The position numbers and the translations under genes were made by a program. A stretch of DNA of 64,000 nucleotides from Nitrosomonas stercoris. Its GTDB lineage: Bacteria; Pseudomonadota; Gammaproteobacteria; Burkholderiales; Nitrosomonadaceae. This document shows positions 34,424 to 49,483 of this stretch, piece after piece. The stretch covers positions 1,488,001-1,552,000 of the forward strand of contig AP019755.1 of assembly GCA_006742785.1 (NCBI GenBank), given 5' to 3'. Numbering within the stretch: the first letter of the stretch is position 1; each line of letters opens with the position of its first letter. A model generated the notes under the pieces. That model saw nothing but the letters and a program-made list of their open reading frames with translations, did not search any database and was not told where the DNA came from.

Positions 34424-34627
34424 ATGAAAGTTTCACATATACTGGTTGCTGCATTTGCCGCTGCTACTTTAACTGGTCTGGCTGGATGTGGTATTGATAC
34501 GGATAAACCTGGTAACTATCCTCCAAGTATGAATTTGGAGCGCGATTCCATGCCTGATAATGTGGATAAAGCAGAAGCAGCAGGTCAAAAAGGCGCAAGT
34601 GAGGCAGGACAAGGCGAAAATAACTGA
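34424..34627 (+). CDS. small predicted lipoprotein
   Basis: 67 residues. A classic lipoprotein signal ends at Cys22 (ATLTGLAGC), then a short hydrophilic tail with GIDTDKPGNYPPSMN and Ala/Gly/Glu-rich C-terminus. The ribosome binding site GGGAG precedes the ATG by about nine bases. A strong terminator lies 26 bases after the stop, which supports a real, separately expressed gene. Small lipoproteins of this style are common in betaproteobacteria; I do not recognise a named family. Confidence 0.75.
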   Translation: MKVSHILVAAFAAATLTGLAGCGIDTDKPGNYPPSMNLERDSMPDNVDKAEAAGQKGASEAGQGENN

Positions 34628-34702: not shown

Positions 34703-37666
34703 TTAAGTGGTGCTGGTTTCATCTTTGGGAAAGAGCTCATCTGCCAGGATTGGAGAGCCAATATAGTAACCTTGCGCGAAATCAACTTCCATTCGGTTAA
34801 GGATGGCTAATATTTCTTTGTTTTCGACAAATTCTGCCGTAATTTTCTTGCCAAATCCTTTTGCCACGCTGCATAACGCGCTGACCAGTATCTGATCATC
34901 AGGATTACTTGCCAGATTGCGTATAAATGAGCCATCAATTTTGACGGCATCGACCGGCAATTCACGCAAATAATAAAAAGAGGAAAATCCCACGCCAAAA
35001 TCATCCAGTACAAAGCCACATCCGAGCCGTTTAAGATCCTGCAGTAGGCTGCGTGTTCCAGGTAGGTTATCTAGTGCTGCTGTTTCGGTGATTTCGAACA
35101 TCAGCAAATTTGGATTTACATTGTTGGTTGATAGCGCTTGGCTGATAGTGGGTAAGAGCTCTGGATCATTAAAAGCATGTGCTGACAAATTGATTGACAA
35201 TCCAATTTGCCTATCTGCTGTTTGGTTGATTCTGGCTGCCAGCGCGATTGCTTTATGCAATACTAGATGATCGATTTTATGGATGAGTCCAGTATGCTCA
35301 GCCGCACGAATGAATGCGCCAGGTAGGTGGATGGTGCCATCTCGATCCAACATACGTAGTAGCACTTCGTAATGATGGGTAATTCCATCGCGCAGGGTTT
35401 GAATCGGTTGCAGATAGAGCAGATAGCGATCATGTGTGTTGGCATATTCAATTCTTTCTTTCCAATATACCAATGTGCGGACACGTTCGCGCGATTGATC
35501 TTCTCTGGAAAACAGATACCAGGTGCCACGTCCTGTTTCTTTGGCCTGATACATAGCTAGATCTGCTGTGGCCAGCAAATCAGGCACATTGTTACCGTGT
35601 TCTGGAAAGATAGCGATACCAATACTGGCTGAAATACTGTGTGTTCTACCGTTAATCGTCAGCTGTGTTTCGTTGAGCCGTGCCAGTATTTTTTTAGCAA
35701 CCTCAATGGCGGCTGCGGGAGAAATTTCAGGCAAGATAATGGCAAACTCATCTCCTCCCAGGCGAGCAGCAATGTCAGCTGTGCGAATGGTGCGAGACAA
35801 CATATCAGCGACCATTTTCAGCATGGCATCCCCTGCCTGGTGGCCACTGGTGTCATTGACAAATTTAAAGCGATCGAGATCGAAGAACAACAGTGCGCCA
35901 GGATGTTGATATCTTTCTGCCCAGCCTAGAATTTGTTCCAGTTCTTCGCTAAAACGACGACGATTATACAGATTGGTAAGCGGATCATGATCAGCCAGCC
36001 ATGCCAGATGGCCTTCTACTCGCTTGTATTCTGTGATGTCGAGGCCAACTGATAAGATAACTGAAGTGTCATCCTGAGATTGCCAGGTCAGGCGTGAATG
36101 CAGCCAGGCAATGTTGCGTTTTGAATCATCTTTACATAGCACGATTGCTTCGTGCCGTAGTTGCTCCCGATCTCCTTTACGGATCTCCCGCAAATAAGTG
36201 TCTAGATTATATTGTTCGCTGTCTGGCGCCAATAATTCTGTAAAGTATTTGTTTTGTAGTTCCTTTTCACTATAGTGAGTCAGCATTTCACCATAAGTGT
36301 TGGTCATGACTATTTTTCCATGTGCATCTTGTGTCAGCACGATAACTTGTGCAGTATCCAGCAAATTTTCAATGAAATCTTTTTCCTTGCTAAGTTCATC
36401 ATGCTGCTGGATTAACATCTGTGTACGGTATGCGATTTTCTCTTCCAGTTTTTCAAGCTTATGTGAAAGGGTTAGTGAGGCATCGTGCAGCAGATCGATT
36501 TCATCGCTAAGCGGACGTTTGCGCCAGCGTGTGGTAAGAGATTTGCGAAAACCATCGAATCCGCCACCTGCAAGCAATGGTAGTAGTGATACGATATGTT
36601 TGAGGCGTGATAAAGGTCTGGAGATGATATAAAACAAAATACTGCCAGATAGTATCGTTCCGATTAGCCCAATAATAACAATACGCTGAATGGAGGTCTG
36701 TATAGCTTGAATGGTATCCGTTATTTCAGTAATGATAACCAGCTGACCTTGATCAGGTATGCGGATGCCGTGCAGAGGGAGTAACTTGATCTGGTAGTGG
36801 CGTTTGTCCCATTCGAATTGAATACCTTGCTCTATTTTTGCGAGGTTTGGATGATTTTTAGCTGTTTCTTTTAAAAGAGTGAGATTTTTGCCACTGTTGG
36901 TTAAGGCTGTAATACAGACATTCCATTCATCTATGCCCATAAGGGCACTACCATCACATGAATAGGTATTGTGCGCGTCGTTGATGGTATGGCCAATAAA
37001 TAATCCGATGTCGGAACCAGATGTACGCTTGAAATTCAGAAAAACATCAACCAAGGATGAGCCGATTGCGATAGCTCCAGCGCGTGATCCTTCAATCAGT
37101 AATGGCTCGATAATGTATTGAACGCAACTTTCTACGCACACCATAAGTGTAGCTGGTTGTTCTCGTGTGTTAACCTCTTGGATATGCTCGAGAATCAAAT
37201 TATCGCGATAGCTGTCTGTTTCGAAATTTCCCCAGCGTGCAAGTAATGATCCAGAATTGTTATAGAAACGAATATCTTCAATGTCACTTTGGATCTGGAA
37301 TAGTGTCCAGTAGTGCTCAAAGGTGCTATATATTGCTTGCGAGCTGTCGGCCAGTAAGCTGTCTTTCATGCCTTTCAGATAGGGAAGAATTCTGACCAAT
37401 CCGTGTAGATTTTCAGAATTACGCCCAATCAGACTTTCTATTTCCCGAGTGTAGCGCTGGTATTGTGTATTTCTTTGCTGTTCAATACTTGTCATCAAAC
37501 TGTTGTAGTTAATCATACTGAATATTGTGATAACAAGTAGCAAGATCAGACTACTGAGTAAGGCGATCTTCCAGCTGAGCCCAATAAATATCCGGGAAGA
37601 TTTGTGACTGGTGTTTTTGAAATCAGCCGGTTCTTTAGAGGTGACAGGCTTTATTTGGTTTTGCAT
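34703..37666 (-). CDS. membrane PAS-GGDEF-EAL cyclic di-GMP protein
   Basis: 987 residues. TM1 is at about 33-53 and TM2 at about 330-350, bounding a large periplasmic sensor. Then come a HAMP-like linker, a coiled coil (about 400-430) and a PAS domain (about 432-540, HGKIVMTNTYGEML). The GGDEF domain (about 565-725) has an intact GGDEF near 639 with RTAD five residues before it, an RxxD inhibitory site. In the EAL domain (about 735-980) the signature reads EVL in YEVLLRM, which keeps the metal-binding Glu. The other catalytic residues are visible in SINLSAHAF, MFEITETAAL, VLDDFGVGFSSF, AVKIDGSF, ITAEFVENKEI and FAQGYYIGSPI. Both activities could be intact. Its start overlaps the porin stop (TAATG). 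Confidence 0.92.
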   Translation of the reverse strand: MQNQIKPVTSKEPADFKNTSHKSSRIFIGLSWKIALLSSLILLLVITIFSMINYNSLMTSIEQQRNTQYQRYTREIESLIGRNSENLHGLVRILPYLKGMKDSLLADSSQAIYSTFEHYWTLFQIQSDIEDIRFYNNSGSLLARWGNFETDSYRDNLILEHIQEVNTREQPATLMVCVESCVQYIIEPLLIEGSRAGAIAIGSSLVDVFLNFKRTSGSDIGLFIGHTINDAHNTYSCDGSALMGIDEWNVCITALTNSGKNLTLLKETAKNHPNLAKIEQGIQFEWDKRHYQIKLLPLHGIRIPDQGQLVIITEITDTIQAIQTSIQRIVIIGLIGTILSGSILFYIISRPLSRLKHIVSLLPLLAGGGFDGFRKSLTTRWRKRPLSDEIDLLHDASLTLSHKLEKLEEKIAYRTQMLIQQHDELSKEKDFIENLLDTAQVIVLTQDAHGKIVMTNTYGEMLTHYSEKELQNKYFTELLAPDSEQYNLDTYLREIRKGDREQLRHEAIVLCKDDSKRNIAWLHSRLTWQSQDDTSVILSVGLDITEYKRVEGHLAWLADHDPLTNLYNRRRFSEELEQILGWAERYQHPGALLFFDLDRFKFVNDTSGHQAGDAMLKMVADMLSRTIRTADIAARLGGDEFAIILPEISPAAAIEVAKKILARLNETQLTINGRTHSISASIGIAIFPEHGNNVPDLLATADLAMYQAKETGRGTWYLFSREDQSRERVRTLVYWKERIEYANTHDRYLLYLQPIQTLRDGITHHYEVLLRMLDRDGTIHLPGAFIRAAEHTGLIHKIDHLVLHKAIALAARINQTADRQIGLSINLSAHAFNDPELLPTISQALSTNNVNPNLLMFEITETAALDNLPGTRSLLQDLKRLGCGFVLDDFGVGFSSFYYLRELPVDAVKIDGSFIRNLASNPDDQILVSALCSVAKGFGKKITAEFVENKEILAILNRMEVDFAQGYYIGSPILADELFPKDETSTT

Positions 37667-38889
37667 TAGAACCGATAGGAAATTTGTGCTGCGAACAGAT
37701 TCCAGTTTCGCTTGGTACGAGTAATATCAGGGTTGTCTAATGGAGAAAGCCAGGCGGTTCCATGGACTCGATGATATTCGGTGCTGAGCATAATAGCAGG
37801 TGTGATATTCCAGCGTAATCCTATTGTTAAGTCTTTAGCATATTGACTATGTGCTGGTTGCGAATAACCGGTGTGAGCTGCAAATTTTTTACCATTGCGA
37901 TCTTTTCTGTTGGCAAATAGCAAATCATAACGCAGTACGGCCTCCCAGTTGGCTGGGAAGCGATATATTCCTTGTAGGTAGAAACTTTCTCCAGTTGTGC
38001 TTTTATCGAATTGAGGCAGTCCGAAACCGTGACGACGCGTATAACGCAATGCATATTCTGACGTTACACTCCAATGTTCAGCGTTATATTGTGCTGAGAA
38101 GATTAAAGGAGAAAATTTAAATGAACCTGATTCTAGAATATCATTTTGTCCAGGATTGTAACCGACGTTAAGCTGTGTACTGCTAATAGCCAAGCGGAAT
38201 CGTCCATCGGGTAATTCGTAAAGAATACGCCCCAGATATGATAGTCTAGGTCTGAGTTTGCCAGGGTATTGTGTTGATCCAAGGATAGAGACATCAGTAT
38301 TAGAATCATCAACCTGTGGGAACCCTGTTCCAAGCTGAATAGAAACATTTCCCCAATCAGTACGGGATTCTCCGTAAAAATGTACGCTATCTGAAGCAAG
38401 CGCCAGATTACGGGTTCGATCAAAATAGATAGATTGAGGAAGTAGTATGCTTGGGCGTGTAAAAGGGACATCACGCGTATCATTGTAAAAACCAAGCGGG
38501 TTTTTCATTCTACCTAGGCGAATACCGAACTCTCCGCTAGGAGTATTGATGAGATTATAGTCGAGAAAGCCAAAGTCAATGTGAATGCCGCCACCTCCCT
38601 TTCCTGCTCGACGATGAAGAAGTTGTCCAGAAAATTGTAATTTGGGTAATGGGCGTAAAGAGGCGGTTAAACCAATCTCTCTGAAGTCCAGGCTGCCTGA
38701 ATTATTGCTATGGCCAAATACATTATTTTTGGTTGTCTTGATATAACCTTGACTCAAGAATCCGTGTACTTGTAGCTGCTGCTTTGTTTGAATTTCTTGT
38801 TCGTGAGCAAAGCCTGAATAAGCAAGCAAGAACAATGATAGTCCTGCGATCCTTGAGAAGATATGGATAGATAATTTTCTACTATTCAT
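37666..38889 (-). CDS. porin-like outer membrane protein
   Basis: 407 residues from the chosen start. A signal peptide (FSRIAGLSLFLLAYSGFA) is followed by beta-barrel-like sequence with aromatic strand ends, such as LDFREIGLTASLRPLPKLQ, FGIRLGRMKNPLGFYND and a final Phe in NLFAAQISYRF. Such proteins resemble the DcaP/OprP-like porins. I chose ATG 38889 over one at 38931 because it gives a clean signal peptide and overlaps the stop of the upstream PstS-like gene (ATGAATAG), a sign of coupling. The stop overlaps the start of the GGDEF-EAL gene. Confidence 0.8.
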   Translation of the reverse strand: MNSRKLSIHIFSRIAGLSLFLLAYSGFAHEQEIQTKQQLQVHGFLSQGYIKTTKNNVFGHSNNSGSLDFREIGLTASLRPLPKLQFSGQLLHRRAGKGGGGIHIDFGFLDYNLINTPSGEFGIRLGRMKNPLGFYNDTRDVPFTRPSILLPQSIYFDRTRNLALASDSVHFYGESRTDWGNVSIQLGTGFPQVDDSNTDVSILGSTQYPGKLRPRLSYLGRILYELPDGRFRLAISSTQLNVGYNPGQNDILESGSFKFSPLIFSAQYNAEHWSVTSEYALRYTRRHGFGLPQFDKSTTGESFYLQGIYRFPANWEAVLRYDLLFANRKDRNGKKFAAHTGYSQPAHSQYAKDLTIGLRWNITPAIMLSTEYHRVHGTAWLSPLDNPDITRTKRNWNLFAAQISYRF

Positions 38890-39333
38890 CGATATGAACA
38901 ATTTTGACGCTGCCATCAACCTTGGCCTCACTTAAATAGCCAATTGCCCCCGGAGTAGTGGCGACTTTAGTGCGCATTTCCTCTTCGGAACGTACAGTGA
39001 ACGGCGCTTGCCCTGTTCCTGAGTATACTAAACGATCCCATATAGAACGGAGTTGGTAAGGGAAAACATTAAGTTTTTTTTGGCGAATTTGCTATGTAAT
39101 GGAATATTGTCGGATAGTACAAAGACTTGGATGGGCACACCATTTTGCCAGGTTCTAAGCCGCATGCTGAAAACCGAGCGCAACAAATTTCTGGATAGAT
39201 TTATATTTGTGTCGGGATGGGTGATGATCTCAACGGTCGTATCAGAGGATAGCGCATTACTCATACATAGAAATGTAGTTAGTAATGCAGGGAAAAAGAT
39301 CCTTTGGAGAAAGTGAGTGAGAAATCCCGTCAC
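38882..39333 (-). pseudogene. PstS-like periplasmic binding protein, frameshifted in an A8 run
   Basis: The N-terminus (from a GTG at 39333) is a signal peptide, FFPALLTTFLCMSNALS, then TTVEIITHPDTNINLSRNLL and SVFSMRLRTWQNGVPIQVFV, the small PstS-like (PBP-like) phosphate-binding fold. After FAKK the frame breaks at an A8 tract on the coding strand (39074-39081). In the other frame the protein continues NVFPYQLRSIWDRLVYSGTG and ends EAKVDGSVKIVHIDE at 38882. One more A would restore a 150-residue product. The tract suggests a recent loss, phase variation or a sequencing error. Its stop overlaps the porin start. Confidence 0.8.
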
Positions 39334-39351: not shown

Positions 39352-40161
39352 TTATTCTGACATACAAACATGATCGAACGGGCTGGGTGTGGTTTGTTTT
39401 GTCGGTACAGAGTGGTTTGATTTGATTGCTTTTAGATTTCCATGGTCTGTGACCAGCTCCCAAATAGATTGATGTTTGCAATGCATCCGGTTAAGTATGT
39501 CAACCAAGTATCCATAATAGGGAGTGCGGAACCCGTGAAAATCGGTTGATGGGCCAACCGGATTCAGTTGCATGCCATAAAATCCCAGTAGCTTATTAAG
39601 TGCTGGTTCCATGGATGAAATTAGATGATAAATTTCGTGTCGGGCACATGTTTGCATGATTCCGACAATCAATCCCAACATTGGATGAGGAAAACGACGG
39701 CGCTCATGTGGTATGTTTGCTGATTGGGGCGGTATGTCTACTGGCCCTGCTAGTGAGTAATGTTCATGCTTGCGTTTAAAAAAATCACTGAGTATGACAA
39801 AGCGTGATATTTCTGCCGTGTGTTTACGCATGGATGCATTTACCTGAAACTCAGGGTAGAACTGAGTATTCAGCTCAGTGGGTAGCTGTTTTTCCGGATA
39901 GTTTGGATCTGGCAGAATGAGGCGGGTTGTGCCGATAAAAGTATCGCTTGGACAATGGCGCAGCAGGAAATGTGCGGAGCGCTGATCGTATTCGTCTTGC
40001 TCCAGTTTGTCTGGAAAATTTGCAGGTTCAAAGCCAGGAATGGTGTTATTGATACACAACACACGAAATCGCAAGTTAAAAACCTCCTTAAGTAGTTCAG
40101 GTGTGTCTGCACTTACGATTTCAAAATATTGATGAAAAGCTCTTTCTAGATCGTTCTTCAT
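39352..40161 (-). CDS. PEP-CTERM/exosortase-associated acyltransferase (LuxI-like)
   Basis: 269 residues of the family of exosortase-associated acyltransferases that resemble acyl-homoserine-lactone synthases (TIGR03694-like). Landmarks are FNLRFRVLCINN at the N-terminus, the substrate region HFLLRHCPSDTFIGTTRLILPD and the conserved AEISRFVILSDFFKRK, then HPMLGLIVGIMQTCARHE and KLLGFYGMQLNPVGP. I chose ATG 40161 because GGGAGG lies six bases before it; an upstream in-frame ATG at 40209 has no such site. It lies 18 bases upstream of the PstS-like gene. The product in these systems is unknown. Confidence 0.85.
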   Translation of the reverse strand: MKNDLERAFHQYFEIVSADTPELLKEVFNLRFRVLCINNTIPGFEPANFPDKLEQDEYDQRSAHFLLRHCPSDTFIGTTRLILPDPNYPEKQLPTELNTQFYPEFQVNASMRKHTAEISRFVILSDFFKRKHEHYSLAGPVDIPPQSANIPHERRRFPHPMLGLIVGIMQTCARHEIYHLISSMEPALNKLLGFYGMQLNPVGPSTDFHGFRTPYYGYLVDILNRMHCKHQSIWELVTDHGNLKAIKSNHSVPTKQTTPSPFDHVCMSE

Positions 40162-40455
40162 GTTTCCTCCCGTATGGTGGTACTGAGCAGTATTTAAAAC
40201 TCTAGCCAAGTAGAATAAATTTTACTGCTCTGGGTGAACTTTCAATACAGGAAATATGTGAACGATATGACTTTATATTCAATTTGCATTTCGCCACCAA
40301 TGTTATTTAATCAGTCATATTTAATTTGCGCAAAGCTATAATCAGTAAGATAGAAAACTACATGATCATGTCATTTAAACGAATGCTCTTAACTATACGC
40401 ACGTCGTTAAAATATGACAAGTTGGTAGTGTTGTTTTTATGAGAAAAGGTAAATA

Positions 40456-42315
40456 CTAGTTTTTTACGGTATGGTGTTGTTTAAACCAATATTCTAGCAT
40501 CATCAATAACCACACCATTGTTCCATGGTAGCTAGCATGTTCTTGAAGGTGTTGATCGAGTAATTTATCAATAAAATCACTGCGTATGACATGGCGTGAT
40601 TTTAGATCGCTGAGGCTATCTGCAGCCAATTCTCGTAGCGGCTGGTGTGTTTGCATCCAGACACCAAATGGCAAGCCGAATCCTTGCTTTTTCTTGGCAA
40701 TAATTTCATTGGGTAGAAACCCAGTTAAGGCTCGTTTGAAGAAATAACGTAACTGTGTGCCTTTTAATTTCTGTTCAGGATCCAGTTTTAGAGAAAAGGC
40801 GATCATTTCATCATTCGTAAAAGGAAATGAAACCTCCATTCCTCCTAAACGACACGCTTGAACGACTTTGGGAAAATCATTGTCTGCCAGTGTGTATTTC
40901 CATTCAAAAGCAAGAATGCGATTAATCAAGCTATTATGTTCTTGGGAAGCATCATGATAAGTTTGCTCAATCAATTGTGCGGGTTGTTCAGCATCGATTT
41001 GTGCCAGTAGTTCAGGGGAGAAGACTGCCTCCAGACCATAATGCATCAACAGGTTATAGGTTTCCATGCGGTGTGGCATGGGTATAGTGGCTTGTTCTAC
41101 ATAGCTTTGTGCTTTGCGTAATAACTTAGGACTAATACTGGCTGGGAATGCCAAGATGAGCGGAGAGAGCAGATAGTTTCGTAGAAGTGACGGAACTCTA
41201 TCGTACAGAGAGAAGAGATATTGTTTTGCATAACGTGCGTTACCTGCAAACAATTCATCGCCGCCGTCGCCTCCGAGCAACAGATCCAAACCGTCATTTT
41301 TGGCCATGCGTGCGCAATAATAAGCTGGCAGGGCGGATGCATTACCAAAAGGTTGATCAAAAACCGAAGCAATTAGTGGAATGGTCGCAACGATGTCGTC
41401 CGGCGTTACATAATATTCGTGGTGATCGGTTGGAAAGTGTCGAGCCGCAATACGAGCATAATACATTTCATCATAACCGGTTGCCTCAAAACCAATTGAG
41501 TAGGTTTTGGCAGGTTCACCAGTTATGGTTGCCAGTATGCCTGTCAAGGTAGAACTATCTGTTCCGCCACTTAGAAAAGCACCTGCTTTTTGACCTTGTA
41601 TGGCTTCACTGACACTTTTTTTAAGTAACGAAATAAATTCTTGTTGTAGTTCCGGGAAAGGACGTCTGATGTTTTCATCAAATTCAAAGTGTATGTAGCG
41701 GTTTGTTTCTATCTGACCATTATGAAAATACAAATATTCTCCCGGGAGTAATCGCTGATGTGCCCGATAAATAGTATCTGGGCCCGGAATCATATGAAAG
41801 TAAAGATAGTTTAATAACCCTTGCGGATTGATTTCTCGATTGGCTTGTGGATGGGTGAGTAGTGAATCGGCGGACGATCCAAACAAAATACCATTGTTTA
41901 GCTGTTGGTAATAAAGTGTGTGGGTACCCGCTGGATCAATTGCCAATGCAGCTTTATGTGCGTGACTGTCCACGATACAACACACGAATTCTCCCGCCAG
42001 ATCGGCAAACAGCTCTTTTTCCTTCTGTTGCCATGATTCAGCCAGTGCCGTGGCCATCCCCTTGGCATCGATAGCCGCTTGCAGCTGTGCATTTTGTGAT
42101 TTTACACGTCCCCAGATACCAACGATTAATCCTTCTTTTTCGTAAAGATGTGCGTGGCTTGTTTTTGCAACGACTGATATTGCAGCGTTGTTTTGGATCG
42201 CCGTGAGTGCAGGGTTATGATCAAAACGCGCCAATAAATTAGCCATGCGATCAATAATTTGCTGGTTTTCCATTGCCGCTTGGTCAGCACTTAACCAGCC
42301 ACCTATACCACTCAT
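40456..42315 (-). CDS. asparagine-synthase-like protein, exosortase-associated type, Cys2 replaced by Ser
   Basis: 619 residues. The N-terminal glutaminase-like domain starts MSGIGGWLSAD, where true class II amidotransferases have MCG; the nucleophilic Cys2 is Ser here. The synthetase domain is intact: the ATP pyrophosphatase loop AGAFLSGGTDSSTLTGIL, then GYDEMYYARIAARHF and LDLLLGGDGGDELFAGNARY. It ends with a C-terminal helix block. It probably adenylates a carboxyl group and uses free ammonia or another amine, not glutamine. It lies 152 bases after the decarboxylase gene in the same direction, with the ligase and acyltransferase around it. Confidence 0.88.
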   Translation of the reverse strand: MSGIGGWLSADQAAMENQQIIDRMANLLARFDHNPALTAIQNNAAISVVAKTSHAHLYEKEGLIVGIWGRVKSQNAQLQAAIDAKGMATALAESWQQKEKELFADLAGEFVCCIVDSHAHKAALAIDPAGTHTLYYQQLNNGILFGSSADSLLTHPQANREINPQGLLNYLYFHMIPGPDTIYRAHQRLLPGEYLYFHNGQIETNRYIHFEFDENIRRPFPELQQEFISLLKKSVSEAIQGQKAGAFLSGGTDSSTLTGILATITGEPAKTYSIGFEATGYDEMYYARIAARHFPTDHHEYYVTPDDIVATIPLIASVFDQPFGNASALPAYYCARMAKNDGLDLLLGGDGGDELFAGNARYAKQYLFSLYDRVPSLLRNYLLSPLILAFPASISPKLLRKAQSYVEQATIPMPHRMETYNLLMHYGLEAVFSPELLAQIDAEQPAQLIEQTYHDASQEHNSLINRILAFEWKYTLADNDFPKVVQACRLGGMEVSFPFTNDEMIAFSLKLDPEQKLKGTQLRYFFKRALTGFLPNEIIAKKKQGFGLPFGVWMQTHQPLRELAADSLSDLKSRHVIRSDFIDKLLDQHLQEHASYHGTMVWLLMMLEYWFKQHHTVKN

Positions 42316-42467: not shown

Positions 42468-43700
42468 TCAAACCAGTACTTCCAATGGAGTGGGGTGGCT
42501 CAGAAAAGAGACTGGGCTGGCTGTTAACCCATAAGCACCGGATTGGAACACAGCAATCAGATCTCCAGGTTCTGCCTTGGGCAATTCCATTTGATCGGCC
42601 AGTAAATCCAGGGGAGTGCAAAGTGGCCCTACTACTGAAACTGTTTCAGTTTTGGTGCTGTTCATTTTATTTGCAACGGCAACCGGATAGTTTTTACGGA
42701 TTACTTGGCCAAAATTACCCGATGCTGCTAAATGATGATGTAGTCCACCATTTGTAATCAGAAAAATTTGTCCTCTAGATAGTTTTTTTTCTAGTACGCG
42801 ACATACGTAGACACCTGCTTCTGCCACAATATAGCGCCCTAGTTCAATGACAAAGCGTATATTTGGAGGAGCAGGAGTGGTTGCCAGCAGTCGTTCCAGA
42901 TTGGCGCCAACTATAGCCAAATCTAGCGGCATTTCACCTGGAAAATAAGGGACGCCAAATCCACCGCCTATATTGATTGTTCGTATTGGCGCAGGTGAGC
43001 TTGCAACAAGCTGCAAACCGAGTTGTAGTGTTTTCTCATGTGCTTCCTGAATGGCTTCTATCTTGAGGTTTTGTGAGCCACTGAAAATATGTAAACCTTC
43101 CAAATCTAGTTTTAGTTGCGCAACGCGCTGTAATACAGCTGGCACCCGTTCAGCATCGATGCCGAATTGCTTGGAGCCGCCTCCCATTTTCATACCGGAA
43201 GATTTCAGCTCAAAATCGGGATTCACTCGTATGGCAACTGTAGGATGAAAGCTTGTTTCATGAGCCAATTGAGCAATTGTTTCTAGTTCTTGCTCAGATT
43301 CTACATTGATAATAATGCCGGCTGCGATGGCGCAAGCTAATTCCTGGCGACTTTTTCCTGGCCCTGCGAAACTGATATCTTTGGGCGCAACGCCCGCATC
43401 CAATGCCACTTTCATTTCACCGGCTGAAGCCACATCAATGCCATCCACAAGTCCCGCCAGGTGTTGTACCACCGCCGGCATCGGATTGGCCTTCATTGCG
43501 TAATGCAGTAGTACACCTGATGGCAAATGATGTTTGAGCGCATGTACCCGTTCAGTCATCAGTTGGCGGTCATAAGCGTAGAAAGGAGTGCTTCCTACTC
43601 GTTGTGCTAAACGTGTCAGCGGAATGCCACCGATAACGAGACAATGATCCTTAATAGGAAATTGTGTAATAGGTGCGTGTTTGGGACGGTTCTTTATCAT
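42468..43700 (-). CDS. PLP-dependent decarboxylase, exosortase A-associated type
   Basis: 410 residues of the ornithine/diaminopimelate decarboxylase fold (group IV, TIGR03099-like). The PLP Lys is in LLHYAMKANPMPAV. Other landmarks are DIASAGEMKVALDAGV-like GIDVASAGEMKVALDAGVAP, the phosphate-binding INIGGGFGVPYF, LHIFSGSQN, and the dimer-donated Cys in VVGPLCTPLDLLAD. The ending FQSGAYGLTASPVSFLSHP is typical of this subfamily. Its start overlaps the stop of the ligase gene by four bases, so ligase and decarboxylase are made together. The substrate is unknown. Confidence 0.88.
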   Translation of the reverse strand: MIKNRPKHAPITQFPIKDHCLVIGGIPLTRLAQRVGSTPFYAYDRQLMTERVHALKHHLPSGVLLHYAMKANPMPAVVQHLAGLVDGIDVASAGEMKVALDAGVAPKDISFAGPGKSRQELACAIAAGIIINVESEQELETIAQLAHETSFHPTVAIRVNPDFELKSSGMKMGGGSKQFGIDAERVPAVLQRVAQLKLDLEGLHIFSGSQNLKIEAIQEAHEKTLQLGLQLVASSPAPIRTINIGGGFGVPYFPGEMPLDLAIVGANLERLLATTPAPPNIRFVIELGRYIVAEAGVYVCRVLEKKLSRGQIFLITNGGLHHHLAASGNFGQVIRKNYPVAVANKMNSTKTETVSVVGPLCTPLDLLADQMELPKAEPGDLIAVFQSGAYGLTASPVSFLSHPTPLEVLV

Positions 43701-45286
43701 GATTCTTTGGCTTGAAAAGTATGCTGAAATTCGTTAGCGATATTTTTTCGATCAATTTTTCCATTCGGATTACGTGGCAGGCTATTTTGTCGTAACTCAA
43801 TCAGGCCAGGCTGCATAAAGGCAGGTAAATGTTTTTTACAGGCAGCAGCCAGCATATCCTTTTCCAGTTCGATACCTGCTTTTGGAACCGCGACAATAAC
43901 GATGATCTGATCCAAAGTGGGATGAGGAACACCAAATGCAGCTACTTCAGAAACAGTTTCTGTGGCATAGATAACCTCTTCAATTTCTGTTGGACTAACG
44001 CGATAACCGGAGGTCTTGATCATATCATCACGTCGACCGATAAAGTATAGATAGCCTTCCTCATCCATGCGTACTGTATCGCCGGACCAAACAGCTAATT
44101 CAGGAATAGTGAGCCCGGGTTGACGTGGCGTCAGCGGTCGGAAGCGAGTAGCTGTTTTATCTGGTGCATTCCAATAACCAAGTGAAACCAGTGATCCACG
44201 GTGCACCAGTTCACCTGGTTCACCTGGCGCGCAGTGGGAACCATCTTCACGTAGTACCATCACTTCAGCATTGGGAATAGCTTTACCCATAGAATCAGGG
44301 CGCTTGTCTACTTCTTCTGGAGGTAAATAAGTGGAGCGAAAAGCTTCTGTTAAGCCGTACATCAGAAAGATTTTTGTGGTCGGCAAAGCTGCTCGCAACT
44401 GTGCTAGGGTGGTGCGTGGCATAGCTCCTCCAGAATTGGTAATGTAGCGTAGTGTCTGCACACCTTGCCAATCTAGTGGTGCCAATTGAGTCCATAATGG
44501 CGGGACGGCAGCTAATCCAGTAATGTGTTCACGTTTAATGATGGAAAGAATATCACGTGGCATCAGGTAATTCATCAAAACAGCAGTAGCGCCGACATAA
44601 AAAGCAGTATTTAATTGGCTTAATCCGTAATCGAAGCTAAGTGGCAACACTGCCAGAATGCGGTCATCAGATCGATTATTCAAATATTGCGCCACGCTTT
44701 TGGCACCAGTTACCAAATTGCGATGAGAAAGCACAACTCCTTTAGGTTTGCCGGTACTACCAGAGGTATACAAAATGGCAGCCATGTCACTGTCAATACA
44801 ACGAGGCAGAGAGATGGAGTTAGAGGAAGATTGCTGTGTCTGTTGCCATGAAACAGTATTTAATCCGGTAATGGATGCAGTTATTTGCGTTTCATCTACG
44901 ATAACAATCGTATGCAGATCACGACATTGTGGTAATACTGCGCGTAGCAAATCAAGCCGAGCAACAGAAGTAACCAGTATTCTGACATTACAATCGTTGA
45001 GAATATAAGCAACTTGTTCGGCTTTAAGTAGTGGATTGACCGGTACAAATGCTCCACCTGCAGCTGAAGTGCCAAATAATGCAATCACAGTTTCAAGACG
45101 TTTCTCGAGATAAATAGCAGCTCGTTCTCCTCGATTTAAGCCTAATTTGTGTAAGGCACCAGCAAATGACTGCGTGGCTGTGGCCAAGTTTGCGTAGGAT
45201 AAATGCCGTTTGCGATCAATAAGTGCGGTTTTGTTGGCATTTTGATTGGCTGATTGGTAGATCAGTTCGTGAAAAAGAGCAGGCAT
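43697..45286 (-). CDS. AMP-forming acyl-CoA ligase, exosortase A-associated type
   Basis: 529 residues of the ANL superfamily (TIGR03098-like). The AMP-binding P-loop is ILYTSGSTGKPKGVVLSHRN, followed by FLMYGLTEAFRSTYLPPEEV and YLYFIGRRDDMIKTSGYRVSP, and the catalytic Lys near the C-terminus is in LPRNPNGKIDRKNIANEF. It loads a carboxylic acid onto CoA or a carrier protein. No acyl carrier protein gene is seen in the window. It overlaps the decarboxylase start and follows prsR by 51 bases. Confidence 0.88.
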   Translation of the reverse strand: MPALFHELIYQSANQNANKTALIDRKRHLSYANLATATQSFAGALHKLGLNRGERAAIYLEKRLETVIALFGTSAAGGAFVPVNPLLKAEQVAYILNDCNVRILVTSVARLDLLRAVLPQCRDLHTIVIVDETQITASITGLNTVSWQQTQQSSSNSISLPRCIDSDMAAILYTSGSTGKPKGVVLSHRNLVTGAKSVAQYLNNRSDDRILAVLPLSFDYGLSQLNTAFYVGATAVLMNYLMPRDILSIIKREHITGLAAVPPLWTQLAPLDWQGVQTLRYITNSGGAMPRTTLAQLRAALPTTKIFLMYGLTEAFRSTYLPPEEVDKRPDSMGKAIPNAEVMVLREDGSHCAPGEPGELVHRGSLVSLGYWNAPDKTATRFRPLTPRQPGLTIPELAVWSGDTVRMDEEGYLYFIGRRDDMIKTSGYRVSPTEIEEVIYATETVSEVAAFGVPHPTLDQIIVIVAVPKAGIELEKDMLAAACKKHLPAFMQPGLIELRQNSLPRNPNGKIDRKNIANEFQHTFQAKES

Positions 45287-45337: not shown

Positions 45338-46696
45338 TTATTTGAGTCCGTGACGATTTATCAGATCGTAAAGCGTTGGGCGGGTAATACCCAGTAATTC
45401 TGCAGCTTTGGCAATATTGCCGTCTACATGTGCCAAGGCTTTGGCGATCACTTCATGTTCCGCTTGCTCGCGGACTTCACGTAATGTAGCGGGTTGTTTA
45501 GGATTCTCTACTGGTGTTAATCCCAGATCCTGAGCTGTAATTTGTGAACCTTCAGCCATGATAACTGCACGTTTGACACAATTTTCTAGTTCGCGAACAT
45601 TACCTGGCCAGGTATGTTGGCTGATAGCATCTAATGCATCCTGATTAAAATTAAGTGCCTGGCGTTTTTCCTTAAGCCGGAATTGATTTTTAAAGTGGTG
45701 AGCCAACAGCACGGCATCACCAATACGTTCACGTACTGGTGGGATATGAATACTTATTTCGCATAATCGATAAAATAAATCTTCACGGAATGTACCTGCT
45801 TCAATCATTTGGTTTAAATTTTGATGAGTGGCACAAATGATACGGACATCCACTGGAATCTCTTCTCTGCCACCAATGCGTTCGATGACGCGTTCCTGCA
45901 GAAATCTTAATAATTTTGCTTGCAGTGAAAGAGGCAAATCACCAACTTCATCCAGAAAAAAAGTACCGCCTTGTGCGGTTTCGATTTTACCTAAGGTTTG
46001 TTTAGCAGCCCCGGAATAGGCTCCTTTTTCATAGCCGAATAGTTCGGCTTCCAGCAATGTTTCAGGAATTGCTGCGCAATTTACTGCGATCATGCGTTTA
46101 TTACGTCGATCACTAAGTGTGTGTAGCCCCTTGGCCAGCACTTCTTTTCCAGTGCCGCTTTCTCCAAGAAGTGCAACTGTCACATCAGAAGTAGCGACGC
46201 GCTCAATTTGCTGACAAATTTTCACCATACCGGGATCTCCAGTAATAAATCCAGGTATGGATGAAATGCGATTGGATTGTTGCAGTTTGTAGTTTTCTTG
46301 CTGTAAATGATGCAGGTAGAATGCTCGGCTGACAATCAGATTGAGTACATCAGCATCTAAGGGCTTTTGATGAAAGTCATATGCTCCCATCCTAATTGCT
46401 TTCAGTGCATTTTCATGGTTTTGATTGCCAGTTAATACAATGATTTTAGTATCAGGTGCTAATGAGAGAATTTGTTGTAAAGTGGCTAAGCCTTCTGTTG
46501 CTCCATCGGGGTCAGGAGGCAAGCCAAGGTCCATAGTTACTACGGCCGGCTCATGTCGACGAATTTGTGCCAATGCACCTTCTCGATCAGAGGCGACCAC
46601 CACATTACAATCGTCGAAACTCCAACGCAATTGTTTCTGGAGTCCTGGGTCATCTTCTATAACGAGTAATTTTTTTTGTACTTTATCTACTTTCAT
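45338..46696 (-). CDS. prsR: PrsR-type sigma-54-dependent response regulator (PEP-CTERM-box)
   Basis: 452 residues in NtrC-like order: a receiver (1-130, LLVIEDDPGLQKQLRW and the phosphoacceptor in VVTMDLGLPPD), an AAA+ domain (about 145-385) with Walker A GESGTGKEVLAKGL, and a C-terminal Fis-type helix-turn-helix (GNIAKAAELLGITRPTLYDL). The sigma-54 contact loop reads GAYSGA, not GAFTGA, a tolerated variant. PrsR is the activator of exosortase/PEP-CTERM genes and is normally paired with the kinase PrsK. No kinase gene adjoins it here. It heads the minus-strand locus and probably regulates it. Confidence 0.9.
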   Translation of the reverse strand: MKVDKVQKKLLVIEDDPGLQKQLRWSFDDCNVVVASDREGALAQIRRHEPAVVTMDLGLPPDPDGATEGLATLQQILSLAPDTKIIVLTGNQNHENALKAIRMGAYDFHQKPLDADVLNLIVSRAFYLHHLQQENYKLQQSNRISSIPGFITGDPGMVKICQQIERVATSDVTVALLGESGTGKEVLAKGLHTLSDRRNKRMIAVNCAAIPETLLEAELFGYEKGAYSGAAKQTLGKIETAQGGTFFLDEVGDLPLSLQAKLLRFLQERVIERIGGREEIPVDVRIICATHQNLNQMIEAGTFREDLFYRLCEISIHIPPVRERIGDAVLLAHHFKNQFRLKEKRQALNFNQDALDAISQHTWPGNVRELENCVKRAVIMAEGSQITAQDLGLTPVENPKQPATLREVREQAEHEVIAKALAHVDGNIAKAAELLGITRPTLYDLINRHGLK

Positions 46697-47110: not shown

Positions 47111-49483
47111 TTAATTGGCTGGATGCAAATACAGCGTTTGTTGTGGCAGACCGGGCAAAAATGGGCTAGTGTTTCCGGCGACCCAGTCAGTATGGCCACT
47201 GCCATAGTAAGGGGAGAGCGGGTGTCCACTTTGTCCACCGGGCATTTGGAAATAGCCTGTTTGTTCTTCTCCAGGCGCGACCACGAAACGCAGCGACGCG
47301 CCAAAGTTAGGCGTCTGAATGCGAGGCATGTGAAGATCTCCTGGTAGTTGATCCGCAGGCATATCCAGCCATGCTGCAATCCACGTAGGCAAGGCGCGGC
47401 TAAGAGGATGCTGAATAGCGGCGGTATTTTTTTCTCCCCAGTTGCGCACTGCGATACCTCCAGGTTGTACTTGCAGTTGTTCTACGACTGCTTGTGCTCT
47501 GGCAGCCAACATTTCATCCCAATTAGCATCGTCAGGAGGAAGTAGATGCGGAGGGCGTTGCTGAATTAATTGCCACACAGCATGCTCAACTTGGCTTAAA
47601 CGCGGTAATTCAAACTGTGGGTGTTGACGCTGGATAATTGCTGCAAAGGCGTTGAGTATATGTTCCATGACGGCATAGCGAAAACTGCGTACGATACGGT
47701 AAGCAACGGATTGAGGAGAGGCATGTCCATCCCAATCTTGCAGCGCTTGTTGCATAGCTTGGCTCCACGTAGCCGTTGGCGTCTTTTGTAATGTTTCGGT
47801 GAGTAATTCTTTCCAGCGCGTTAGCAGTAATGCGCGATCATCTAATTGAATGCCAAGAAGATCCTTGGCTGAAAATTGATCTTGTGTTTGTAACAAATTG
47901 CGTATTTGCTGGCTGCGTGCGCCAAGATCATATCCACCATCTCCCAGTTTTTTCAGTGCAACACCATCAATTGCTCTGGCATTGCCATTCCACAAGCGCA
48001 TACCGCTAGGATTAATGATTGATGGGTAATCAGTAGGGGCGAGCCATCCTTGCCATCCGACTATTTGTTCACTCCAATCTGCTGGTAAATTTGCATCATA
48101 ATTCCCTACACGAGCAGGAATGCGGCCAGCTATTGTCCATGCAATCTCTCCATTTTTGCTGCCAATGATAAGATTTTGCGCTGGGATACCCATATCAGGA
48201 GCAATTTTGACCGCTTCACTCAGTTCTTGTATTTGTTCCAGTCTCATGAGATCAAGATTAGCTGCATTGGGTTGTAGAGCAGTCCACATCAGTGCAAGCG
48301 GTGTACCATCGTGATCCTGGGCAAGAATTGGCCCCCAGTTGGTCTCACGGATTTCCAATTTTTCATCAGGCGCATCGCGCACGTGCAGTATTTCCTGATG
48401 AATTTGGATAGTTTCCCACTGGTTATGATTTGCATAGCGATTCGGATCGGCTGGATCAATTGTAATTCTGACCCAATCGGCAAAATCTCCGTAAGAATTG
48501 GTGAATCCCCAGGCAATATGGCGATTGGAACCAGCAACAATGGCTGGTGTGCCTGGTAAGCTGACGCCGATGACATCAATGGTTTTGTTTTGATCAGCGA
48601 GATCTGGATAACGTATGCGAGTACGAAACCACAAGCTGGGAACGCGTAATGATAAATGCATATCATTGGCAACTAGTGCGCTACCATGAGCGAGTTTTCC
48701 GCTAACAGCAAAAGCATTACTGCCCATGAGTGCAGATTCCTGGAAGTGATGGTTGAATGTGGTTGAATGGTTAGCGGAACGCAAATCGATATCGGTGATT
48801 GGTGGATAAGGTGGCCATTCAAATTTATCACCAATCAAGGGTGCATCCCATTCTCCGCCACTGGCGGTCAGAAAACGATAGACTGATTCTGGTAGAGAAG
48901 CATGCATGGCGGATAGCCCTAATTCACGGTCGATGCTGCCTGCTTGCAAATCAATGTACATGGCAAGTATAACCAGCAGGCTATCTTCACTGCGCCAAGG
49001 TTGTGGTGCGGTTTGTGTAAGGAGATAACCAAAGTGTCTAGTTGCCAATTGCTCCAACCCGCTATTGACTCCATCTTGATAAGCCTCGAGTAGCCGGAGT
49101 TGATCGGGAGGGAGCGCCTGCAGCATCAATTGAGCATGTGCTCGCATACGGTAACCACGTGTTTTACGATCAATCGGTAAAACAGCAGCTCCAAATAGTT
49201 CAGCAAGTTCTCCAGCTGCTTTGCGACGCATCAAATCCATTTCAAAGAAGCGTTCTTGTGCATGGACAAAACCCAGGCTACGGGCAAGATCAATTCTATT
49301 ATGTGCAGTTAGGGTAGCTGTACCTAATGCATCTCGTTCAACGATGACTGTATCAATGAGCTGAGGAAGTTGTTGCTCGCCCTCATAAATGGGTAAACTG
49401 CCTCGCAGTATCCACCAGAGTGTCACTAAGAGAATCACGATAAGAATGAGTAGTGCGAGCAGAAGTTTACGTAGCATGGTCAA
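47111..49483 (-). CDS. penicillin acylase family N-terminal nucleophile hydrolase
   Basis: 790 residues. The N-terminal hydrophobic segment (LLLALLILIVILLVTLWWIL) can be a signal or an anchor, so the enzyme is periplasmic. The alpha-chain part has HAQERFFEMDLMRRKAAGELAEL. Autocatalytic cleavage frees the nucleophile Ser255 in MGSNAFAVSGKLA. The beta chain carries DMHLSLRVPSLWFRTRI, AGSNRHIAWGFTNSYGDFAD and the Asn and Arg active-site helpers later. The family hydrolyses beta-lactam side chains and also N-acyl-homoserine lactones. A link with the LuxI-like acyltransferase in this window is only a guess. It is transcribed alone. Confidence 0.9.
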   Translation of the reverse strand: MTMLRKLLLALLILIVILLVTLWWILRGSLPIYEGEQQLPQLIDTVIVERDALGTATLTAHNRIDLARSLGFVHAQERFFEMDLMRRKAAGELAELFGAAVLPIDRKTRGYRMRAHAQLMLQALPPDQLRLLEAYQDGVNSGLEQLATRHFGYLLTQTAPQPWRSEDSLLVILAMYIDLQAGSIDRELGLSAMHASLPESVYRFLTASGGEWDAPLIGDKFEWPPYPPITDIDLRSANHSTTFNHHFQESALMGSNAFAVSGKLAHGSALVANDMHLSLRVPSLWFRTRIRYPDLADQNKTIDVIGVSLPGTPAIVAGSNRHIAWGFTNSYGDFADWVRITIDPADPNRYANHNQWETIQIHQEILHVRDAPDEKLEIRETNWGPILAQDHDGTPLALMWTALQPNAANLDLMRLEQIQELSEAVKIAPDMGIPAQNLIIGSKNGEIAWTIAGRIPARVGNYDANLPADWSEQIVGWQGWLAPTDYPSIINPSGMRLWNGNARAIDGVALKKLGDGGYDLGARSQQIRNLLQTQDQFSAKDLLGIQLDDRALLLTRWKELLTETLQKTPTATWSQAMQQALQDWDGHASPQSVAYRIVRSFRYAVMEHILNAFAAIIQRQHPQFELPRLSQVEHAVWQLIQQRPPHLLPPDDANWDEMLAARAQAVVEQLQVQPGGIAVRNWGEKNTAAIQHPLSRALPTWIAAWLDMPADQLPGDLHMPRIQTPNFGASLRFVVAPGEEQTGYFQMPGGQSGHPLSPYYGSGHTDWVAGNTSPFLPGLPQQTLYLHPAN

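Follow-up and report, generated by a model that had tools for sequence, protein, structure and literature searches.

Three genes of Nitrosomonas stercoris, located on the minus strand at positions 34703-39333 of the window (the whole analysed stretch of 64,000 nucleotides of contig AP019755.1), probably encode an envelope sensor that has not been described before and controls the production of surface polymers. The trio is composed of (i) a half PstS-type binding protein (half-PBP), (ii) a 16-strand outer-membrane porin and (iii) a membrane GGDEF-EAL protein. No description of such a half-PBP-porin-receptor trio was found in the open-access literature searched.

Organization of the trio and the frameshift in its first gene

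The half-PBP gene (38885-39333, minus strand) begins with a GTG at 39333 and closes with a TAG at 38885. It is followed by the porin gene (37666-38889, minus strand; 407 aa, ATG at 38889) and the GGDEF-EAL gene (34703-37666, minus strand; 987 aa). The place of the three genes, given earlier in a sequence-only reading, was confirmed on the sequence. The same reading held all three genes to be translationally coupled. Both overlaps are indeed present: the end of the half-PBP gene (...GAT GAA TAG) spans the porin ATG (ATGAATAG), and the porin TAA runs into the ATG of the GGDEF-EAL gene (TAATG, 37666). Coupling between the first and second genes, however, applies only with a restored frame, because the stop overlapping the porin start sits in the other frame. 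The half-PBP/porin overlap is conserved: in 60 of 75 loci the half-PBP stop is overlapped by an in-frame porin ATG. TAATG between porin and GGDEF-EAL gene occurs only in this genome and in the N. eutropha clade (four loci), and in most relatives the gap between the porin and GGDEF-EAL genes is up to ~45 nt. Convergent to the GGDEF-EAL gene lies a 67-aa lipoprotein-like ORF (34424-34627, plus strand) without family match; of six relatives inspected, four have it in the same position.

The frame of the half-PBP gene is broken by a run of eight A residues (39074-39081). The ORF starting at GTG 39333 ends at 39028, and the rest of the domain, beyond the run, lies in another frame that reaches the TAG at 38885. 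In relatives the gene is open, and N. eutropha Nm24 (L011/L041) has nine A residues and is in frame. The locus of N. europaea ATCC 25978 (L043) is likewise intact. It is possible, though on the unlikely side, that the module is decaying in this genome, with a pseudogene in first place and no function left, as the A run is one base shorter and no evident Shine-Dalgarno sequence precedes the porin start once the overlapping stop is gone. Against such decay, the porin and GGDEF-EAL genes are both intact, and the pN/pS ratio after the frameshift (0.14) resembles that of the porin (0.15), both values being rough since synonymous sites are near saturation. Because the part behind the frameshift is still strongly constrained, the frameshift either arose very recently, reflects a sequencing error in the homopolymer or is tolerated thanks to slippage. 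Homopolymer phase variation at the A8 run is also conceivable. Damaged modules occur among relatives as well: L062 has a broken half-PBP gene and lacks a GGDEF-EAL gene behind the porin, and in L078 the half-PBP is truncated (98 aa).

The receptor and its exchangeable outputs

The large periplasmic domain previously noticed in the third protein is borne out as a dCache_3 domain (residues 66-318; 9.8e-21) between two TM-like segments (~25-59 and ~321-350). The cytoplasmic part consists of PAS (432-546), GGDEF (558-714) and EAL (740-972) domains, and the GGDEF motif, the RxxD I-site and the EAL catalytic motifs are all intact. A phmmer search against the PDB found no sequence relative of the sensor domain.

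In distant members the third gene encodes a different output: a dCache_3-HisKA-HATPase-REC hybrid histidine kinase (L117 and L142), a further hybrid kinase (L149) or, in L144, a dCache_3 protein with GGDEF only. A second half-PBP clade, in which the usual order is porin-PBP, adjoins HAMP-MCPsignal chemoreceptors (L153, L160, L162 and L167) or GGDEF-EAL proteins of other make (L158, L165 and L166). A tree of 68 half-PBPs requires 19 changes among five output labels, with outputs at several separate places, the label "none" possibly reflecting in part short contigs or separated genes; the GGDEF-EAL label changes at least five times on well-supported branches. A constant porin and half-PBP with changing outputs has the look expected of a receptor front end, and this exchange makes it very likely that the trio is a sensory module.

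The acyltransferase and the exosortase-A-associated operon

In the window, the trio closes an exosortase-A-associated operon, which, like the synthase-type gene next to the trio, was overlooked in the sequence-only reading. It is preceded, on the same strand and in this order, by genes encoding (i) PrsR, a PEP-CTERM-box sigma-54 response regulator (45338-46696; TIGR02915, 778 bits, cut-off 503), (ii) an AMP-forming, exosortase A system-associated acyl-CoA ligase (43697-45286; TIGR03098, 817 bits, cut-off 592), (iii) an exosortase A system-associated PLP-dependent decarboxylase (42468-43700; TIGR03099, over cut-off), (iv) an asparagine-synthase-like amidotransferase (40456-42315; related to TIGR03108, 273 bits, below the cut-off of 817) and (v) a PEP-CTERM/exosortase-associated acyltransferase (39352-40209; TIGR03694, 262.6 bits, cut-off 111.95), which ends 18 nt before the half-PBP start. 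The order from PrsR to the trio is repeated in six other genomes, one of them without a recognisable decarboxylase. The amidotransferase starts with MSGIGGW; where glutamine amidotransferases (MCGI) have their catalytic Cys2, it apparently has a Ser. Upstream of PrsR, a penicillin-amidase family protein (47111-49483, minus strand; PF01804, weak PvdQ similarity) is encoded, as in five of the six relatives checked; it could hydrolyse N-acyl compounds. The XrtA gene of this genome lies at G000:C1:2219018 (347.5 bits), and a second TIGR03694 acyltransferase (G000:C1:1309956-1310651), unlinked to the trio, belongs to a different branch of the N-acyl amino acid synthase (NAS) tree.

Members of the TIGR03694 family make long-chain N-acyl amino acids. 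The window acyltransferase shows the Acetyltransf_5/FeeM/autoinducer-synthase relationship (N-acyl amino acid synthase/autoinducer synthase superfamily), and phmmer retrieved no sequence relative of it from the PDB. An acyltransferase gene lies immediately upstream of the trio in 61 of 66 named loci. In a class-wide sample, 22 of the 34 genomes with the porin also have TIGR03694, where 5.1 would be expected (OR 16.8; p=1.5e-12, an optimistic value because species are not independent). The two genes are adjacent in 13 of the 22 genomes, in divergent, downstream and convergent orientations, and even where no exosortase was found. Exosortase A was rejected as the main partner, its association with the porin in this sample (OR 2.3, p=0.04) being far weaker than that of the acyltransferase. 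In the NAS tree, the synthases linked to the trio group together (5 changes vs 15.4 when shuffled), though not as one clade, and none of the clade II (chemoreceptor) systems was seen adjoining a synthase. The other 12 of the 34 porin genomes have no TIGR03694 gene over the cut-off; an N-acyl product is therefore not a universal ligand, and the wider porin family must have others.

The trio might instead serve transport in the first place. The porin, with the half-PBP as its periplasmic partner, would then export or import what the ligase-decarboxylase-amidotransferase-acyltransferase operon produces, and the co-expressed GGDEF-EAL protein would sense something else through dCache_3. Thiorhodococcus and Imhoffiella keep the porin beside the acyltransferase without half-PBP and sensor; the two Chromatiaceae loci of this kind (L089 and L118) also fit a transport role and count against the sensor reading. 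Moreover, dCache domains usually bind ligands directly, and the nearest porin folds are substrate-specific channels. A primary role in transport nevertheless appears unlikely, as it leaves unexplained both the pairing of half-PBP and porin with kinases and chemoreceptors and the presence of the pair in genomes lacking the acyltransferase. At L089 and L118, porin and acyltransferase are encoded on opposite strands, with a methyltransferase gene between them in L089.

The porin and the half binding protein

The window porin gave no Pfam or NCBIfam match at E<=1, and thus none to Phosphate-selective porin O/P (PF07396); a distant porin relative matched Porin_4 and, weakly, Porin_O_P, hits to the latter being weak and limited to distant relatives. 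An AlphaFold2 model of the porin (pLDDT 82.6) has 16 strands, and a conserved L3-like loop with the motif TRPSILLPQSIYFD is placed between strands 5 and 6, at low model confidence. In the Foldseek search DcaP, chitoporin and Omp32 ranked first and OprO further down; the porin is similar to both general and substrate-specific porins with 16 strands. The closest named relatives (70-79% identity) are those of N. eutropha, Nitrosomonas sp. HPC101 and N. europaea. A plasmid collection yielded a porin relative in one Halomonas record (48%) and no DNA match to the half-PBP region.

The half-PBP is only ~150 aa long including the signal, vs ~250-330 aa for a two-lobed binding protein. Its PBP_like_2 (PF12849) match is limited to profile positions 96-185 of 267 and, at 19.3 bits, stays below the cut-off of 27, while a PDB profile search aligns it with PstS residues 80-186. 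Modelled from the N. eutropha sequence (pLDDT 87), it spans a single lobe of PstS, and a Foldseek comparison of this model with PstS (4exl) gave TMq 0.62 and TMt 0.37; as model and Foldseek both show one lobe, a full-length PBP was ruled out. The Ser-Gly-Thr loop, GADSGTFDYF in the PstS of this genome (L174), is replaced by PDDAPLHNIF in the half-PBP of relatives (ungapped register, aligned by eye). Sequence and model thus point to one half of a binding protein that lacks the known site for anions. Invariant residues are D76, H81, R97, W100-D101 and G107-Q110 (A1 numbering). Because it has a single PstS lobe and a replaced loop, the half-PBP is unlikely to carry a ligand as a full binding protein does, the role that the sequence-only reading assigned to it.

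The same two features led us to dismiss the phosphate ligand named in that reading. Sensing of phosphate or another small anion, admitted by the porin and carried by the binding protein to the GGDEF-EAL receptor, can draw on the relationship of the half-PBP to PstS in sequence and fold, on the Porin_4 and weak Porin_O_P matches of the distant relative and on the presence of OprO among the Foldseek matches. It is improbable all the same: to the missing lobe and the changed loop are added a neighbourhood without phosphate genes and structural porin matches in which OprO is outranked.

The half-PBP domain is also found fused C-terminally to membrane proteins (L183, 2867-4597; L184, 1731-3437; L185, 3241-5265) whose N-terminal part reads like a J-domain region. 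These fusions show that the half-PBP can exist as a detached domain. They were rejected as proof of contact with the receptor, since the fusion partners are J-domain-like membrane proteins and not receptors.

Conservation of the trio

Within the genus, the porin was found in 81 of 85 genomes. A search of a genome collection returned 358 porin relatives, the best 80 loci of which belong to Nitrosomonas, Nitrosospira, Nitrosovibrio, Nitrotoga, Chromatiaceae, Nitrospirota, Manganitrophaceae and others. The porin is adjoined by the half-PBP gene in 63 of 66 fully covered named loci, and by a GGDEF/EAL gene likewise in 63 of 66. In the class-wide sample the porin was detected at E<=1e-10 in 37 of 370 genomes; the fully covered loci of this sample have an adjacent PBP in 25, a GGDEF/EAL gene in 18 and a dCache sensor in 19 of 27 cases. 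Trio relatives reach Nitrospirota, Manganitrophaceae and a record titled Deltaproteobacteria. Co-occurrence beyond this genome, on which the earlier reading had staked its proposal, is thus found across families and phyla, and the conserved three-gene sensory unit that it envisaged is supported by this synteny together with the exchanged output domains. Chance, or inherited gene order without a functional link, has a negligible probability and is excluded by this conservation. Some synteny within Nitrosomonadaceae is to be expected from descent, but the linkage survives changes of orientation, order and output domains across families and phyla. Tandem duplications were seen in L093 (Manganitrophaceae), with two porins, and in L146, with two PBP-porin pairs.

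Proposed envelope sensor

The best overall explanation, which we hold with slightly better than even confidence, is an envelope receptor feeding cyclic di-GMP into polysaccharide/PEP-CTERM control. Its ligand-facing side would be formed by the outer-membrane porin and the single-lobe PstS-type periplasmic protein, and its transducer by the membrane protein with the periplasmic dCache_3 domain. The porin would admit or bind an envelope ligand, and the half-PBP would serve as a periplasmic co-receptor acting on the dCache_3 domain. In Nitrosomonas, the cytoplasmic GGDEF-EAL part would then change the cyclic di-GMP level, tuning exopolysaccharide and PEP-CTERM proteins. We infer in this way physical cooperation of the porin, the lobe and the dCache domain, as well as the ligand, the sign of the cyclic di-GMP change and its target. 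Control of exopolysaccharide and PEP-CTERM proteins by the trio is fairly likely; as its ligand, the operon's own N-acyl product can be put forward only tentatively. The overall explanation is supported by Methylomonas LW13, in which disruption of a PEP-CTERM NAS gene removed a polysaccharide band (PMC11072679). Against it, N. europaea alone is reported to form very little biofilm (PMC6711990).

The trio has a minority chance of being a receptor class of its own. The proposal in its full extent is doubtful: an undescribed, widespread class of outer-membrane-to-cytoplasm receptors, in which a dedicated porin and a lobe detached from PstS are plugged into exchangeable outputs and which, in nitrifiers, would receive a quorum-like N-acyl amino acid signal from the adjacent synthase. 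If true, an envelope receptor module would be common to many proteobacteria and Nitrospirota, and the porin would be part of a signalling unit, beyond a passive pore. Long-chain N-acyl amino acids, described as having a still unclear biological role (PMC4897644), would gain a candidate receptor. They would also be tied to cyclic di-GMP and to the making of polysaccharide in nitrifiers, bacteria of importance for wastewater biofilms.

Comparison with known systems

Each component of the trio has known counterparts. The half-PBP is homologous to one lobe of PstS (PBP_like_2, PF12849) and has the same fold, but it is one-lobed, falls under the Pfam cut-off in Nitrosomonas and has lost the anion motif. 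The porin shares the 16-strand barrel and the conserved loop between strands 5 and 6 with DcaP, chitoporin and OprO, but it is only 11-14% identical to them, fits no named family and is linked genetically with a receptor. A 2011 study by Craig, Cherry and Brady, cited in PMC11072679, reportedly described the PEP-CTERM/exosortase-linked N-acyl amino acid synthases (TIGR03694). The gene upstream of the trio exceeds the cut-off of this family and likewise shares its operon with exosortase-A-associated families; the difference lies in the attached porin-PBP-receptor trio, which was not found in the literature searched.

The nearest working analogue of the trio, judged by the kinds of protein involved, is NspS-MbaA, which operates with a complete binding protein and no porin. 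In Vibrio cholerae this system combines a periplasmic binding protein with a GGDEF-EAL receptor (PMC5646818, PMC8079147). In both cases the gene for a periplasmic binding-protein homologue accompanies that of a membrane GGDEF-EAL protein with possible control over the biofilm matrix, and the trio receptor is such a protein, with a periplasmic sensor and intact active-site motifs. The trio differs in that its PBP is one PstS-type lobe and not a full polyamine-binding protein, and in that a porin gene lies between the two, the receptor carries dCache_3 and the outputs are exchangeable.
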